Assembly: GCA_003555025.1 (NCBI GenBank)
Contig: PWHV01000005.1
Location: 1-64,000, forward strand
From: Methanomassiliicoccaceae archaeon
Lineage (GTDB): Archaea > Thermoplasmatota > Thermoplasmata > Methanomassiliicoccales > Methanomethylophilaceae
DNA length: 64,000 nt
Direction: 5' to 3'
The translations under genes and the position numbers were made by a program. Positions 8,931 to 16,766 of this stretch are shown piece by piece; the stretch's first letter is position 1; each line of letters starts with the position of its first letter. Below the pieces are notes generated by a model. It did no database searches and had not been told where the DNA came from. It saw only the letters and a program-made list of their open reading frames with translations.

Positions 8931-9614
8931 ATGAGGGACGAGCTACGGGAGAAGATCGCTGGGGAGATAACCCTCTCCAACGACCCCGGTAGGACCATCC
9001 GTAAATGGCGGGAGGAATTCGGTCTCTCTCAGCAGGAGCTCTCCCACGCGATGCAGGTGTCGCCGTCGGTGGTCTCTGATTACGAGTCCGGACGCAGGAA
9101 GTCGCCGGGCATAGTCATAGTGCGCCGCATGGTGGACAGCTTCCTGTGCTTGGACGAGGAGAACGGATCGCCGACCATCAAGAGGTACGAGATCGGCGGA
9201 CGGAGCGACTGCATCGTGTCCATGGCCGAGTTCCGCGGCGGAATGAGGATGGACGAGTTCATATCGACCATCAAAGGAAGGAACGTCACTGACACCATCG
9301 ACACCCAGGGGCATATCCACGGCTACACTGTGGTCAACTCCATCAAGGCGATAACATCGCTGAGCTCCGCCGATTATCTGAAGATATACGGATGGAGCTC
9401 GGAGAGGGCAATGGTGTTCACCGATGTTTACTTCGGCAGGTCGCCAATGATCGCCATACGCGCGCACCCCCTGACACCGGCGATGGTGGTCTACCACCGT
9501 CCGGAGCAGGTGGACCCGCTGGCGATAAAGCTGGCGCGGCTGGAGGGGATACCGCTTGTGACGACCGAAATGGACCTGGACGAGATGGTGGCCCGGTTGG
9601 AGGATTTGGAGTAG
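8931..9614 (+). CDS. XRE-type helix-turn-helix regulator at the head of the mevalonate operon
   Basis: 227 residues. Residues about 20-75 form an XRE/Cro helix-turn-helix ([18 protein letters not shown] followed by [13 protein letters not shown]). The rest resembles the ligand- or partner-binding half of the archaeal predicted regulators grouped as COG1709, from memory. It begins 27 nt after a TATA box with no leader. HMG-CoA synthase follows after 13 bases, so it may control isoprenoid synthesis, and the dyad at 8871-8886 could be its own operator. It ends in TAG. Confidence 0.82.
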
Positions 9615-9627
9615 GAGGATCGCTATC

Positions 9628-10677
9628 ATGGATGTTGGAATAGTGAGCTACGGCGCGTTCGTGCCGAGATTCAGGATAACGCCGATGGAGATCGGCAGGG
9701 TATGGGGCCAGGACGGCAAGGCAATGAGCAAAGGCCTCTTCATAAACAGCAAGTCCGTCCCATCGCCCGACGAGGATGTCATCACCATATCCGCCCAGGC
9801 GGCCAGGGGCATGATGCGCCGTGTCGATGTGGACCCCGCGGACATCGGGGCGTTGTACGTGGGATCGGAGTCCCATCCTTACGCGGTCAAGCCCACCGGC
9901 ACGGTGGTCGCCGAGGCCATCGAGGCCTCGCCGGAGCTGTGCGTGGCCGACCTGGAGTTCGCCTGCAAGGCCGGCACCGCCGGCATGCAGATGGTTATGG
10001 GGATGGTGGGATCCGGCATGATGAGATACGGGGTGGCCATAGGCGCGGACACATCTCAGGGCGCCCCCGGGGACGCTTTGGAGTACTCCGCCTCCGCCGG
10101 AGGGGCGGCGTTGCTCATCGGCCGCGAGGACATAATCGCCAAGTTCAACGGGACCTTGAGCTACACCACCGACACCCCCGATTTCTGGAGGAGGGAGGGC
10201 CAGCCCTACCCTTCCCACGGAGGGAGGTTCACCGGCGAGCCGGCCTACTTCAAGCACGTGGGCGAGGCGGCCAGGCGGATGATGGAGCGCATGGGCACTT
10301 CGCCGGGGGACTACAACCACCTAGTCCTGCACCAGCCCAACGGCAAGTTCCCTCAGCGCATGGCCTCGATGCTCGGCTTCAGCGAAGAGCAGGTCTCCCG
10401 CGGCCTGCTTACCCCCATGATAGGCAACACCTACAGCGGCGCCGTGCCTTTGGGACTGGCGGCGGTGCTGGACGTGGCCAAGCCCGGGGACAGGATACTG
10501 GCGGTGGCCTATGGTTCGGGGGCGGGGAGCGACGCCTTCGACATCACCGTCACCGAAGCCATAAAGGGATTCAACCGGGGCGCGGCCCCCACCATCGACG
10601 CGATGATGGAGAACACCAAGGAACTGGATTACGCCACTTACGCCAAGTACCGTGGCAAGATATTGATGAAGGGGTGA
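9628..10677 (+). CDS. Hydroxymethylglutaryl-CoA synthase, archaeal type
   Basis: Condenses acetoacetyl-CoA with acetyl-CoA to HMG-CoA, the first committed step toward archaeal isoprenoid lipids. 349 residues, the usual archaeal length. The nucleophile is Cys113 in FACKAGTAG and a catalytic His lies at 235 in [10 protein letters not shown]; the [10 protein letters not shown] segment holding the active-site Glu is also present, so this enzyme looks intact. GGAGGA precedes ATG 9628. In methanogens this protein forms a complex with the thiolase and DUF35 proteins encoded directly downstream, so that acetoacetyl-CoA is channelled between active sites. Confidence 0.95.
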
Positions 10678-10681
10678 TTAT

Positions 10682-11848
10682 CTGAGGGAAGTAGCAGTTA
10701 TCGGCATAGGCGTCACGCAGTTCGGGGAGCTGTGGGACCATTCATTCCGCCAGGTCGGGATACAGGCCGGCCTGGAGGCGGTCTACGACGCCAACCTGTC
10801 CGGCTCGGAGATAGATGCCATGTACATCGGCAACATGTCCTCGGGCCGGTTCATAGACCAGCACCACATCGGGGCGCTTATCGCGGACTACTCGGGGATG
10901 GCGTCCCACAACGTACCTTCCACGAGGATCGAGGCCGCGGGCGCGTCCGGCTCCCTGGCGTTCCGCCAGGGCGTTATGGCGGTGGCCTCGGGGATGCATG
11001 ACGTGGTCGTCGTCGGAGGGGCGGAGAAGATGACCGACGTCTCCGACGATGCCAGCAACTTCATCCTGAACTCCGCCGCCGACCAGCAGTGGGAGTCGAT
11101 GATGGGCGCCACCTTCGCCTCGCTGCACGCCATGATCGCCCAGCGTTACATGCACGAGGGCTACGCCACCCGGGAGCAGATCGCCCAGGTGGCGGTGAAG
11201 AGCCACCTCCACGGGGCGCTCAATCCCAAGGCCCAGTTCCAGAAGCCCATCAAACTGGAAACGGTCCTCCGCTCTCCGACGGTGGCCGAGCCGTTGACGA
11301 TGTTCGACTGCTCGCCGATCTCCGACGGAGCGGCGGCGGTGGTCCTATGCCCGTTGGAGACGGCGCACGAGTACACCGACAAGCCGGTCAAGGTCCTGGG
11401 CACCGGCCAGGCGAGCGATACTCTCGCCCTCTACCAGCGCCCGGACATTTGCTCTTTCGAGGCCACCAAGGTGGCCTCCCGCATGGCCTACGACATCGCC
11501 GGCGTGGGCCCTGACGGCATCGACCTGGTGGAGATCCATGACGATTATACCATATCGGAGCTCCTGGCCCTCGAGGACATGGGCTTCTTCCCCCGCGGTG
11601 AGGCCGGCAAGGCCGTGGAGAGCGGGGAGACGGAGATCGGCGGCAGGCTGCCCGTAAACACCTCCGGCGGTCTCAAGGCCCGCGGCAACCCCATCGGGGC
11701 CACCGGCGTGGCGCAGATCGTCGAGCTTGTGACCCAGCTGCGCGGGGATGCCGACAAGAGGCAGGTCAAGGGGGCGAGCACGGGCATGGCCCAGAGCATC
11801 GGCGGCACCGGTTCCACCGCCGTCATCACCATCATGGGGGTGGTCTAG
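10682..11848 (+). CDS. Thiolase-family subunit with altered catalytic residues, apparent CTG start
   Basis: Homologue of the archaeal acetyl-CoA C-acetyltransferase that partners HMG-CoA synthase. The conserved N-terminus REVAVIGIGVTQFGE is encoded, but the only start available before it is CTG 10682, four bases after the upstream stop and preceded by GGGGTGAT; the first in-frame ATG (10820) would remove 46 residues of core fold. Length from CTG is 388, normal for the family. Three family catalytic positions are changed: nucleophile Cys to Gly (EAAGASGS instead of EAACASGS), HDC to HDD, and the GH of the GHPxGATG motif to GN. It may be a structural pseudo-enzyme. It ends in TAG, immediately followed in frame by the DUF35 ATG. 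Confidence 0.88.
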   Translation: MREVAVIGIGVTQFGELWDHSFRQVGIQAGLEAVYDANLSGSEIDAMYIGNMSSGRFIDQHHIGALIADYSGMASHNVPSTRIEAAGASGSLAFRQGVMAVASGMHDVVVVGGAEKMTDVSDDASNFILNSAADQQWESMMGATFASLHAMIAQRYMHEGYATREQIAQVAVKSHLHGALNPKAQFQKPIKLETVLRSPTVAEPLTMFDCSPISDGAAAVVLCPLETAHEYTDKPVKVLGTGQASDTLALYQRPDICSFEATKVASRMAYDIAGVGPDGIDLVEIHDDYTISELLALEDMGFFPRGEAGKAVESGETEIGGRLPVNTSGGLKARGNPIGATGVAQIVELVTQLRGDADKRQVKGASTGMAQSIGGTGSTAVITIMGVV

Positions 11849-12253
11849 ATGACCGTCGCCAGGTTCTGGAGGGACATACCCAGCCGCTACAACCTCTACG
11901 GCAGCAGGTGCGCCAGCTGCGGGAAGGTCTACTTCCCGGTGAGGCACATCTGCCCGAAATGCCGCCGCTCTAGCATAGGCAAGATGGAGAGGCATCGCCT
12001 CTCCGGCAAGGGCAGGGTGCACTCCTTCTCGGTGGTGCACGACGCCCCGCCGCAGCTAGCGGTTCTGAAGCCCTACGCGGTGGCCATAGTGGAGATGGAC
12101 GAGGGCGTCAAGGTGACAGGACAGCTCGTCGATGTTGAGATCGAAGAGATAGATATCGGCATGGGCGTCGAAGCGGTCCTGCGCAAGCTAGGCGACGAGG
12201 GCCCCGCGGGAATAATCCACTACGGCTTCAAGTTCTCCCCCCGCTTCGACTGA
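11849..12253 (+). CDS. DUF35 zinc-ribbon/OB-fold protein of the thiolase-HMGS complex
   Basis: 134 residues. An N-terminal rubredoxin-like zinc ribbon (CASC about 16 residues before CPKC) is followed by an OB fold with SGKGRVHSFSVVH. In the methanogen thiolase/HMG-CoA synthase complex this protein bridges the two enzymes and helps form the shared CoA-binding site. ATG 11849 directly follows the TAG of the thiolase homologue in the same frame, with GGGGGTGG upstream as a ribosome-binding site. It ends one base before the convergent giant gene. Confidence 0.92.
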   Translation: MTVARFWRDIPSRYNLYGSRCASCGKVYFPVRHICPKCRRSSIGKMERHRLSGKGRVHSFSVVHDAPPQLAVLKPYAVAIVEMDEGVKVTGQLVDVEIEEIDIGMGVEAVLRKLGDEGPAGIIHYGFKFSPRFD

Positions 12254-12254
12254 G

Positions 12255-15200
12255 TCATATCAGGACGCGGCGGGTGCGGCGGCGCTCCGACAGCAGGGGG
12301 AGGTAGCTGATCTCAGCGAAGCCCCGTCCCTTGATGGCAGGATAAACGACCTCCTCCCCTATCCCGAGCTTCTCGGCCAGGGGGCGGCCGTCGATGCGCA
12401 GGTCCACCGCCATGGCGGGGTTGATGTTGCTGATGCGCAGGTAGCCGTCCCGCAGCTCGATGTCCAGGCGGGGCAGGAATGAGCGCTCGATGCGCTCCAT
12501 CGCCCAGGCGGCCGCATGGCACGCCCGGCGCAGGCTGGAGGGGTCATCCGCGGACCACAACATCCCCCGGTGGTCTTTGAGGTCGACCCCCTGGGCCTCG
12601 GCCTCGTCTATGCGCCGGCGGCACTCGTCGAACTGCTCCACCAAAACGCGGGCCCGTTCCTCCTCGAGGCCTTGGACGCAGGACGCGGCTTTGGCCCTCC
12701 ACAGCGCCTCCTCCCATGCGCCATCGTCGCGTAACAACCGGGCTTCTGCTGCCAGATCCGCCGCCGGCCCGCGCTCCTCCACCGCTTCAAGCATGGAATC
12801 AACCGCCTCATCGCAACGGAGCCTCAACTCCGCGCTGAGCTCGAGGAGGGCGTGGTCGTCATACGTGGCGGTGAGGCCGGTGTCGTGCCCCGTCATCCCC
12901 ACCGCCTCGATGACGGCCTCCTCCGTCCCGTAAAGGCCGTGGACCATGTCGGCGCCGGTCTCCACCGTCCCTCGGCCGTGGTCGAGGACGGACGGCTCCT
13001 CGTTGCGGGAGTGCTGGTCCCTCTCGCTGCCGGCGACGCAATGACGGGCATGCTCCACACCCATCATCCGGGCTGCATAGCAGCCGGCGCAGAGGCACTC
13101 CTCCGCCGCTCCGATGCATCCGCTCCCGCCCTCCCAGCAGAAGAAGGCCTCGCCCCTTTCCGCCGATGCCGCGGTGTAGGAGGGGCAGGAGCCGCACCTG
13201 CAATACGACCTGCCCTCGGCGATGAAAATGCTCCTCCTCCTGGGGCTCATGGCGCCCACCAGGCGCAGCGTCTGCATCCATTTGGGCTCGTTCTCGTAAT
13301 CAACGGCAGCGTCATGCTCTGGAATGGTGGCGGCCTCCGTCGCGGCGAGGAGGCCCGCCATCTCGGTGATGCGGGCCCTCTCCGTATGGCGGAGCTCATG
13401 CATGCGCCGTTGCGCAGCGTCCTCAAGCTCCAGCATCGCTCCGATCCCACCGTCGCTGTCGCCCTTGGAGACCAGCGCCACAGTCCCTTCCAGCGCTTCG
13501 ATGTACGAGCGCATCCCCCATCGGGCGGGGGCCTCCTCCATCATCTGGCGGAAACGCTGGACACGGGGTTTGATGCGGATGTAGGCATCCAACGAGGCAT
13601 TCAGGTTGATGTGGTGGCTCTGGGTGAGGACATACGCGGAGATGAAGGTGCCGCGGGAGGTCCATTCCTCCACCTGCTTGATGGCCGCTTCCGCACGTTC
13701 GGTGTGCATCCCCTCTTCGGCCATGTAATCGCGCAGCTCCGACAGGGACCGCAGCGCCCCGCGCACCATGTCACGCTTCTGGGAGGTCCTTCCCTTGGCC
13801 ATGCCGATGAGGCCCTCCACGTCGCCGGCGGCGTGGAACCACCTTTCTGACACCAGGCCTCGGACGGTGTCCATGACCGCGAGGTCCTTCTCCAGGTCCG
13901 GCCCGCTGAGCTCGTCATCCTCCATCGCCTCCTCCACGGAGGAGCGGCTGAGCATGTCGATGAGTTCTCCTACCTGGTCCACGGCCCGCTCCGATATGCC
14001 GCGGGCGAGGCAGAACTCGCCGCTCATCATGACGTCGGAGGCCAGCGCTTGTAGCTCCTCTTGACTTCCGACCTCGTATCCGATGCGCTCGGCGTCGCCG
14101 ACGCTGAGACGGTTGCGGAACTGTGTCATATCGATGGAATCGATGATCTCCTTCCTCCTCTCCGCCTCGCGCCGCAGCGCGGTGATGATGTCCAGCGCCC
14201 TCTCGGGCTCCGGCCCTGACGCCATTGACTCCGCATGGGATATCATCTCTTTCACCGCGCCCTCCTCGCGGGGACGGAAACGCACCCCCTCCACTTTGTC
14301 CCGCAGCCGGGGGAAGTTCTCCTTCAAAGAGCTGGCGATTTCCGCTCTGCCCGCCCTCACCGCCTTCTCCAACAACGAGGAGGCCAGTCGGTAGTCCTCG
14401 CTCTCGAGGAAGAACTCGGCCTGGGGTATGGACTCCCGCAGCGACACCTCATCGATGCCCAATTCCCTCACGGCATCCTGCACCTGCGTCGCCTGCGAGA
14501 GCATCTCCGTCGCGGCCGCCCTGCTGCCGCGATCGAAGATGCTGCGCATCAGCCTCTTGGTGGATATGTCGGCGTCCCGGAACTTTCCGTTATGAAGGAG
14601 CAGCAAAGCGTTATCCAGCACATCCCGGTCGTCCTCGCGCTCGATGATGCGGTCCAGGCGGAGCATGTTGCTGTAGACCTCCCCATGGAGGATGGTGGCG
14701 ATCTCCAACTCGATCTTTGATTCCCTGCTCAGCTCATGCCCCCGCCGCAGTTCCCCTGCTCTCAGATGACGGCGGGCGCTTTTCAGCTTGCTCAGCTGCT
14801 CATCGAGGTTCGTCCCTTCCGCCGCGTGGCGGCTGGCGGTGTTGTGCAGCTCTTCGACCCTCTGCTGCAGCTCGGTGAACACTGTATCCGCCAGCCTCGA
14901 CTCCAGGTCCTTGGCCTTGTCCACGTCTTCGAGGCGCACCCTGCGACCCATTGTGCTCAAGGAGTACATCTCTCGCCGGTGGGCGGATACGTCCACGTTC
15001 ACATACTCCCCGGTGGCGATAAGATCCTTTATCTTGCGGACATGGCGCTCGAGGGAGTCCGTCACATTCCCTGTTATCTTCTTGCGCGCGGTCCATACAT
15101 GCACATGGGCCTGCTCGTGCTCTCCTCTCTCCGTCATCGCCTCGGCTTCGGAGAGCATCTCCTCGTAGGGCCCCACCTCGATCTTACCGCGGTGGGCCTC

Positions 15201-16766
15201 TATGTCCCCGCGGAGGGCGTCGACGGATTCGGCCGCCTTCTCGCCCAGTCGGAGGTCTATGCTCTCCGCCAGCTCGCGGACGGCCTCCACACGGCCTTTG
15301 AATCTGCCCTCGGAGACGTCTTGGAAGAGCTCATCCAAGCGCTCGGTCTCCTCCGGCAGCTCCGCCTCCATGCGGAACCCTGACAAGAGCCCCATCTGGC
15401 ACTCGAGGAAGTCATCGGCGACGTATTCCAAGGCCTGCCCCTTGATCAGGCCCAAGGCCTCCTGGATCATCTCGTGGGCGCCACTGAAGTCCCCTCTCAG
15501 GGCCATCTCCCTGCCCCACTCGATGCGCTTGTCGGCCTCTCTCATGTCGATGTCGTATCGGTCCAGCTCATCCGCCAGCCTCTCCATCTCCGCGAAGGAG
15601 TCACGCATCTCGATGAAACCGGGCATCATGTCCTTGAGGACGGACTCGACCTCGCGCACCTTATCCAGCGCCCCTTCCAGGTCGCCGCTGGACAATATAT
15701 GCCGCGCCTCGTCGAGCCCGACGATGACCGGTCCGATGTCGTGGCCCACCCTCCGGCCGATCTGGATCATCTCCGACAACGAGTCTATGATGCCGGAGAC
15801 CATGTCGGACTCCCGGGTGCCCATCATGTCGTCCAGCTCCAGGAATATCTCCAGGGCCTGGTAGGGGTTCTCCTCCATCTTCTCCTGCATGTCCTCCAGC
15901 CGTTTTTCGACCTCTGGGTCGCGGATGCCCTGGTCCTCCAGCACCTTGTGCCGGTAGCTAATGAACTCGTGGGCGTAGTCGATCCCTTGGCGGAGGATCT
16001 CGTCCATCTCTTCGTAGATGCGGTAGAGGGTGTCGAAAGCCTGACGGTAGTCGCCGCGTCGTAGGGAGGCCCGCGACTGGTCCCACATGCCGCTTATCGG
16101 GCCCATGTCCTGCAGGGCCCTCTCCACCATGGCCTGTTGCTCGGCCACTGCCTGGGCCACATGATTGTAGACCTTTTCGAGCTCGCCTATCGCGGCCTTC
16201 AGAACGCCGCGCACATCATCGAGGCCACCATCGACCTGCTGAAGGCCCTCCATGGCCTGTTTCAGCTCCGGCGTGATATCATCTTCCCTGACGACCTCGT
16301 CGACCACCTCCTGCAGCGCAGACCTGCTGTCGAGTATGAATCGCCTGGCCTCTTCCTCAAGCTCATCGGCGATCCTCGCCGCCTCGGAGATGTCGGTGGA
16401 CATCGCAAGCTCCCCTTCGACGATGCGGTCCATCAGTTCGGGGGGTGTGTATGAGAAACCGAGGTCCACGGTGTTGCGCAGGTCCATGAAACGGGTGGTA
16501 ATCACCTGCTGGCCGGCCATGTCCAATTCCTGGCGGCCGGCGTTAGCCAGATCAAGGGCGTCATGGAAGCGACCCTCCTCGTAGGCTGCCTCCGCATCCC
16601 TCACCATCTTCTCGGTGGCGGCGAAGTCCATCTCCGGGAAGTCGAGGCCGCGGAGGTCCTCATGGAGCTTGGCGAGGGCCTTCTCCGCCTCCTGTTTGGT
16701 CATCACAGCCCTTCTTCCCCTCTCTTGAAGGGATCGGGCGAGACTGATCTGCGGCGGCAAGGTCAA
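12255..16766 (-). CDS. Giant helical protein with a Cys-rich DUF2769-like segment
   Basis: About 1503 residues, almost entirely charged helix and probably a long coiled-coil or TPR-like rod; many blocks follow a pattern such as EEALRxG-x-AHEL. Residues about 1183-1245 form a compact nine-cysteine cluster (CRCGSCPSY, FFCWEGGSGC, CLCAGCY, ARHC) that resembles the archaeal DUF2769 metal-binding segment from memory. About 250 more residues follow, ending in a short beta-rich region. No membrane helix or signal is seen. Start TTG 16766 has AGAGGTGA upstream; an ATG at 16703 is the alternative. The Cgi121 gene ends 33 bases upstream, so the two are likely co-transcribed. Function unknown. Confidence 0.8.
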   Translation of the reverse strand: MTLPPQISLARSLQERGRRAVMTKQEAEKALAKLHEDLRGLDFPEMDFAATEKMVRDAEAAYEEGRFHDALDLANAGRQELDMAGQQVITTRFMDLRNTVDLGFSYTPPELMDRIVEGELAMSTDISEAARIADELEEEARRFILDSRSALQEVVDEVVREDDITPELKQAMEGLQQVDGGLDDVRGVLKAAIGELEKVYNHVAQAVAEQQAMVERALQDMGPISGMWDQSRASLRRGDYRQAFDTLYRIYEEMDEILRQGIDYAHEFISYRHKVLEDQGIRDPEVEKRLEDMQEKMEENPYQALEIFLELDDMMGTRESDMVSGIIDSLSEMIQIGRRVGHDIGPVIVGLDEARHILSSGDLEGALDKVREVESVLKDMMPGFIEMRDSFAEMERLADELDRYDIDMREADKRIEWGREMALRGDFSGAHEMIQEALGLIKGQALEYVADDFLECQMGLLSGFRMEAELPEETERLDELFQDVSEGRFKGRVEAVRELAESIDLRLGEKAAESVDALRGDIEAHRGKIEVGPYEEMLSEAEAMTERGEHEQAHVHVWTARKKITGNVTDSLERHVRKIKDLIATGEYVNVDVSAHRREMYSLSTMGRRVRLEDVDKAKDLESRLADTVFTELQQRVEELHNTASRHAAEGTNLDEQLSKLKSARRHLRAGELRRGHELSRESKIELEIATILHGEVYSNMLRLDRIIEREDDRDVLDNALLLLHNGKFRDADISTKRLMRSIFDRGSRAAATEMLSQATQVQDAVRELGIDEVSLRESIPQAEFFLESEDYRLASSLLEKAVRAGRAEIASSLKENFPRLRDKVEGVRFRPREEGAVKEMISHAESMASGPEPERALDIITALRREAERRKEIIDSIDMTQFRNRLSVGDAERIGYEVGSQEELQALASDVMMSGEFCLARGISERAVDQVGELIDMLSRSSVEEAMEDDELSGPDLEKDLAVMDTVRGLVSERWFHAAGDVEGLIGMAKGRTSQKRDMVRGALRSLSELRDYMAEEGMHTERAEAAIKQVEEWTSRGTFISAYVLTQSHHINLNASLDAYIRIKPRVQRFRQMMEEAPARWGMRSYIEALEGTVALVSKGDSDGGIGAMLELEDAAQRRMHELRHTERARITEMAGLLAATEAATIPEHDAAVDYENEPKWMQTLRLVGAMSPRRRSIFIAEGRSYCRCGSCPSYTAASAERGEAFFCWEGGSGCIGAAEECLCAGCYAARMMGVEHARHCVAGSERDQHSRNEEPSVLDHGRGTVETGADMVHGLYGTEEAVIEAVGMTGHDTGLTATYDDHALLELSAELRLRCDEAVDSMLEAVEERGPAADLAAEARLLRDDGAWEEALWRAKAASCVQGLEEERARVLVEQFDECRRRIDEAEAQGVDLKDHRGMLWSADDPSSLRRACHAAAWAMERIERSFLPRLDIELRDGYLRISNINPAMAVDLRIDGRPLAEKLGIGEEVVYPAIKGRGFAEISYLPLLSERRRTRRVLI

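Follow-up and report, generated by a model that had tools for sequence, protein, structure and literature searches.

The archaeal complex formed by thiolase and HMG-CoA synthase (HMGS) is explained by the channelling of an unfavourable intermediate. In this known complex the two enzymes share one CoA site (PMC12329534), and in the M. thermolithotrophicus enzyme the active Cys is Cys85 (PMC6392133). A related assembly, PhlABC, contains an HMGS-like subunit, PhlA, in which Gly115 replaces the catalytic Cys and which probably serves assembly (PMC6392133). Here we analyse a locus of a Methanomassiliicoccaceae archaeon, carried by a DNA stretch of 64,000 nucleotides (the window; positions 1 to 64,000 of contig PWHV01000005.1), where the thiolase homologue encoded next to HMGS is predicted to be catalytically dead. 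It would represent, as far as the open-access literature shows, a previously undescribed variant of a known complex: no prior description of a dead HMGS-linked thiolase was found in that literature, and subscription papers may mention one.

Results

HMGS, the thiolase homologue and a DUF35 protein follow each other in operon order on one strand (9628-12253; Table 1). The first-pass annotation had taken the HMGS for catalytically intact from its Cys113 and His235, and rightly so, Glu81 being kept as well. The DUF35 sequence, CASCGKVYFPVRHICPKC, has an intact canonical zinc site, Cys-x2-Cys-x10-Cys-x2-Cys (spacing from PMC12329534). An HTH protein lies upstream of HMGS, and a similar protein occupies this place in 50 of 51 named loci whose thiolase has lost the nucleophile Cys (Cys-lost) and in 8 of 22 that have kept it (Cys-intact), counting those with enough flanking sequence. 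HMG-CoA reductase is also encoded in the genome, and the pathway should therefore be in use. Downstream of the operon lies, on the opposite strand, an ORF of 1503 aa (window 12255-16766, -).

Table 1. Features of the HMGS operon in the window and codons at the catalytic positions of its thiolase homologue.
Feature	Position	Strand	Basis
HTH protein upstream of HMGS, conserved neighbour	8931..9614	+	PF01381
Archaeal HMG-CoA synthase (HMGS)	9628..10677	+	TIGR00748, 557 bits vs cut-off 353; Glu81, Cys113, His235 intact
Ribosome-binding-site-like AAGGGGTGAT, overlaps HMGS stop codon	10667..10681	+	conserved in congeners
HMGS-linked thiolase homologue, SCP2/archaeal type, 388 aa, predicted catalytically dead	10682..11848	+	CTG start, open frame, NF004720
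Gly87 codon (nucleophile Cys85 position of the Mt enzyme)	10940..10942	+	alignment
Asp288 codon (HDC cysteine position, Mt Cys286)	11543..11545	+	alignment
Asn336 codon (GHP histidine position, Mt His336)	11687..11689	+	alignment
DUF35 protein (zf-ChsH2 + OB), bridging-subunit homologue	11849..12253	+	PF12172 and PF01796

The thiolase frame has no internal stop (LREVAVIG...EAAGASGS...EIHDDYT...GGLKARGNPIGATG). Its product scores above the cut-off of the NCBIfam model NF004720 and obtains 548.9 bits with NF053570 (METTL thiolase, an NCBIfam equivalog), under the cut-off of 600. We took as residue reference the solved M. thermolithotrophicus (Mt) thiolase 6ESQ, with Cys85, His284, Cys286 and His336; the aligned residues of the window thiolase are Gly87, His286, Asp288 and Asn336, so that the histidine of the HD motif is retained and the three others are replaced. 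The first-pass annotation had read EAAGASGS as a change of the nucleophile Cys to Gly, and GGLKARGNPIGATG as standing in place of GHPIGATG; the comparison with studied archaeal thiolases that it proposed, made here with 6ESQ, places both changes at Cys85 and His336. Its third motif, EIHDDYT instead of HDCF/HDCFT, is equally real as a replacement of Cys286 and loses its value as a catalytic loss: the P. furiosus thiolase 7YVY has HDAF at this motif, and HDSF occurs in many Cys85-intact sequences of the Jordarchaeia phylum, hence this Cys is not diagnostic. The case for a predicted loss of catalysis thus rests on Cys85 and His336.

Gly, His, Asp and Asn are common to the window and four congeners (L004-L007, 88-96% identical), and Gly, Asp and Asn are likewise found in L008 (84% identical); a sequencing or frame error behind the residue losses is ruled out by this shared state. 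The gene starts with CTG (10682-10684), at the codon where congeners have ATG, TTG or GTG, behind the conserved AAGGGGTGAT, which bears out the start given in the first-pass annotation; ORF calling limited to ATG, GTG and TTG places the start at 10820. As AAGGGGTGAT overlaps the end of the HMGS frame at its stop codon, HMGS and thiolase may be translationally coupled. A CTG thiolase start is also seen in one other relative (L013).

The nucleophile Cys was absent in all of the first 30 relatives fetched, and the named close relatives of the locus are Methanomassiliicoccales metagenome assemblies. In most sampled families of Thermoplasmatota, G, D, S, T, E, N or A stands where the HMGS-linked thiolase should have its Cys. 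It is kept in families f10, f15, f18, f35, f39, f41, f43, f45, f46, f48, f53 and f56, with the states C-H-C-H and C-H-A-H, plus single cases of C-H-C-N and C-H-Y-H. Altogether 144 Cys-lost and 35 Cys-intact loci were counted among 179 HMGS-linked loci, a redundant set from class and phylum samples with outgroups included; thinning at 80% identity left 62 and 21. Beside Cys-lost thiolases the HMGS Cys113 is kept wherever it could be read (139/139), and the two groups alike have an intact set of catalytic residues in HMGS. HMGS and thiolase lie on the same strand in 171/171 loci, the thiolase starting at a median of 12 nt past the last aligned HMGS base. In the phylum of a Jordarchaeia genome, further HMGS-linked thiolases are Cys-lost, with D (L131, L276) or G (L285, L289, L290). 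Thiolase paralogues of Thermoplasmatota without HMGS linkage keep C-H-C-H, which rules out that the Cys loss is a general trait of the thiolase family. From these alignments, the loss in the HMGS-linked thiolase is a recurrent state across a phylum and not a local oddity. Another Cys-less group, which has Pro in place of the nucleophile (ENGPASGG), is formed by thiolase homologues of the Jordarchaeia phylum that have no HMGS match in the fetched flank (L296, L298, L303).

On a tree of the concatenated operon, from which the catalytic columns were removed, the Cys state must change five times (independent events number 4-6). A single ancestral loss is rejected: forcing one Cys-lost clade costs 108 log-likelihood (AU p = 4.75e-5). 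The Cys-intact family f18 nests with f22 and f30, which are Cys-lost (supports 100 and 97). This tree leaves the direction of each change unproven.

The search for a second, intact thiolase suggested in the first-pass annotation was positive. Exactly one other PF00108 protein is encoded in the window's genome (P0003, G000:C2:11604-12779), of the acetyl-CoA C-acetyltransferase type, with the motifs CGSG, NEAF, GHPIGASG and CLGGG. Among the 80 genomes of known Cys state, a biosynthetic-type second thiolase is present in 52/52 Cys-lost vs 8/28 Cys-intact ones; of the 20 Cys-intact genomes without it, 19 have no PF00108 protein other than the HMGS-linked thiolase. All four catalytic residues are kept in the 30 second thiolases fetched; an internal stop in that of G028 is only apparent and corresponds to the terminal stop. 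Fourteen of the 15 Cys-intact archaeal genomes behind named loci, mostly methanogens, are without a second thiolase, and the last has two contig fragments; the Cys-lost Jordarchaeia genome has three homologues. As to its location, the second thiolase of Methanomassiliicoccales sits in a conserved TiaS/thiolase/M20-peptidase neighbourhood (L212-L229), and in G128 (L154:3-1461) it is divergent from the HMGS operon, with about 0.2 kb between the two.

Fisher's test gives p = 9e-13 for the association of Cys loss with the second thiolase in the 80 genomes, a value that is overstated and not a true probability because the independent events are few. The sign test on independent pairs has only two supported pairs, too few for significance, and none in the opposite direction. 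The weight of the co-occurrence lies in its zero exceptions. The eight Cys-intact genomes with both thiolases fit a gain of the second thiolase before the Cys loss.

We also checked 39 genomes, chosen mostly because the linked thiolase was absent: 33 are without archaeal HMGS as well, some of them possibly through assembly gaps. Every full archaeal HMGS of this set is flanked by thiolase and DUF35, and no complete archaeal HMGS without a thiolase partner was found among the genomes checked. Families f44 and f50 (L260-L270) are devoid of the archaeal HMGS module and have an HMGS-like protein of another type, of ~525 aa, with no thiolase match near its gene.

The dN/dS of the thiolase in the window's genus is about 0.01-0.06, like that of HMGS. 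With many synonymous distances close to saturation, the closest pair, L003-L004, gives the most reliable value (0.045). The AlphaFold model of the single chain has a pLDDT of 94.9 and its best PDB match is 6esq_A (TM 0.97, rmsd 1.0). The window thiolase thus shows one mark of a pseudoenzyme: strong purifying selection acts on its fold and gene, and catalytic residues are lost. These data bear on the reading that the gene is decaying, about to be lost and deprived of present function, for which the CTG start and the absence of both genes from genomes with the other HMGS type could plead; that the gene is full-length in relatives, with a dN/dS of about 0.05, is kept across a phylum and was never missing beside a complete archaeal HMGS in the genomes checked makes this reading barely credible.

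Comparison of the 62 Cys-lost with the 21 Cys-intact sequences shows a relaxation concentrated at positions 84-85, 122-128, 141-145, 156, 286-287 and 336. Positions 85, 286 and 336, and also 141, 142 and 145, pass from near-invariant in the intact enzymes to high entropy in the Cys-lost ones; in these alignments the relaxation is strongest at and around the catalytic positions. At the opposite, His at Mt 284 is retained in 89% of the Cys-lost sequences, which may reflect a CoA-related or acid-base role, His171 is found in all of them and Cys at Mt 206 in 92%. One could imagine from the latter two that the HMGS-linked thiolase still makes acetoacetyl-CoA with a Cys and a His supplied from other positions or from a neighbouring subunit. 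However, both residues are equally conserved in the intact enzymes and so are not replacements, and no Cys or His has been gained in the Cys-lost alignment, where the first-pass annotation had placed the possible refutation of its proposal. Moreover, in the homologous PhlC the change of Cys88 to Ala or Ser abolishes activity (PMC6392133), which in turn supports the inactivity of the window thiolase. We regard such a relocated active site as highly improbable.

Another alternative, raised in the first-pass annotation, is that the chemistry is altered: the active site would be repurposed, e.g. for retro-aldol or decarboxylase reactions without covalent intermediate, as in the steroid aldolases Ltp2 and Sal. 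These share with the locus the fold and the DUF35 partnership (PMC12329534), and the remaining His284 and invariant His171 might be recruited to such an end. But where the Ltp2/Sal motif, YD[HC][FY], has its catalytic Tyr (the Mt His284 position), 89% of the Cys-lost sequences, that of the window thiolase included, have a His, so that an aldolase of this type is rejected, and the gene is still tied to HMGS. More generally, we disfavour altered chemistry because a shared new chemistry would forbid the free variation seen, even inside a single order, at positions 85, 286 and 336, and because no conserved replacement set was found at these three positions across the Cys-lost sequences. This alternative appears very unlikely; in other lineages Ser, Asp or Glu at position 85 could in principle sustain a weak or different chemistry.

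Discussion

Residue losses, an intact HMGS, a conserved operon, the predicted fold, purifying selection and the co-occurrence of a second thiolase are observed at this locus and its relatives; from them we infer that thiolase activity is lost, that the complex still forms and where acetoacetyl-CoA comes from. The most probable reading (about 0.82) is that of a pseudoenzyme kept in the HMGS/DUF35 complex, where it would serve structure or the CoA site, acetoacetyl-CoA coming from the second thiolase. The window thiolase would have as its ancestor the acetoacetyl-CoA thiolase of the archaeal complex and would no longer form the acetyl-cysteine intermediate. It would be retained because archaeal HMGS needs the thiolase fold for assembly, for stability or for completing the shared CoA site. 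Free acetoacetyl-CoA would come from the second thiolase, which is intact, of biosynthetic type and encoded at a separate locus; HMGS would then condense this acetoacetyl-CoA with acetyl-CoA. The first-pass annotation had already suggested that the subunit may be a non-catalytic scaffold and that a separate thiolase would make acetoacetyl-CoA, and the fact that Cys loss never occurs without a second thiolase in 80 genomes supports its suggestion.

A variant overlapping this reading is that of a regulatory subunit, whose dead site would bind CoA, acetyl-CoA or acetoacetyl-CoA and tune HMGS. The retained fold and the single CoA site shared by both enzymes in the known complex (PMC12329534) are in keeping with it; no regulatory signature was seen in the thiolase, and relaxation is among the highest close to the catalytic motifs, which makes a regulatory function rather unlikely.

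Beyond the window, we lean towards the idea that the channelling complex, which stands at the start of archaeal isoprenoid synthesis, was uncoupled several times. With a free-standing thiolase in place, the thiolase subunit of the complex itself would die and yet stay indispensable to HMGS, perhaps as a lid of the CoA site or a receiver of acetoacetyl-CoA. If this is true, the complex persists through structural dependence and not for channelling. Most sampled lineages of a phylum would then keep the genes of the complex after losing the very reaction that needs channelling, and the Cys-lost lineages are a natural experiment on why the thiolase/HMGS complex exists. On a practical side, annotations that call the HMGS-linked subunit an active acetyl-CoA acetyltransferase are probably mistaken in Cys-lost lineages, the second thiolase being the likely true source of acetoacetyl-CoA in Methanomassiliicoccales and relatives.

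Compared with known systems, the locus resembles the archaeal thiolase/HMGS/DUF35 complex by its three subunit families, its predicted thiolase fold (TM 0.97) and the intact catalytic residues of HMGS; it differs by a thiolase without Cys85 and His336 (and Cys286), and by a genome that encodes, elsewhere, a second thiolase of another subfamily. The latter, P0003, is like the biosynthetic acetyl-CoA C-acetyltransferases (TIGR01930 type) and is our proposed supplier of acetoacetyl-CoA; contrary to the window thiolase it has intact catalytic residues, at a separate locus and in a different subfamily. Ltp2 and Sal also combine a thiolase fold with DUF35 and leave the thiolase nucleophile unused, but their conserved Tyr-based catalytic motif is absent in the window and they have no HMGS partner. 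By analogy, the closest precedent for the predicted dead-subunit arrangement is the PhlABC Friedel-Crafts acylase of Pseudomonas protegens (PDB 5M3K), which likewise has three components, one subunit of the thiolase superfamily having exchanged its Cys for Gly. It is a mirror image of the locus: in PhlABC the HMGS-like PhlA is dead and the thiolase-like PhlC active, whereas in the window the thiolase is predicted dead and HMGS is intact.
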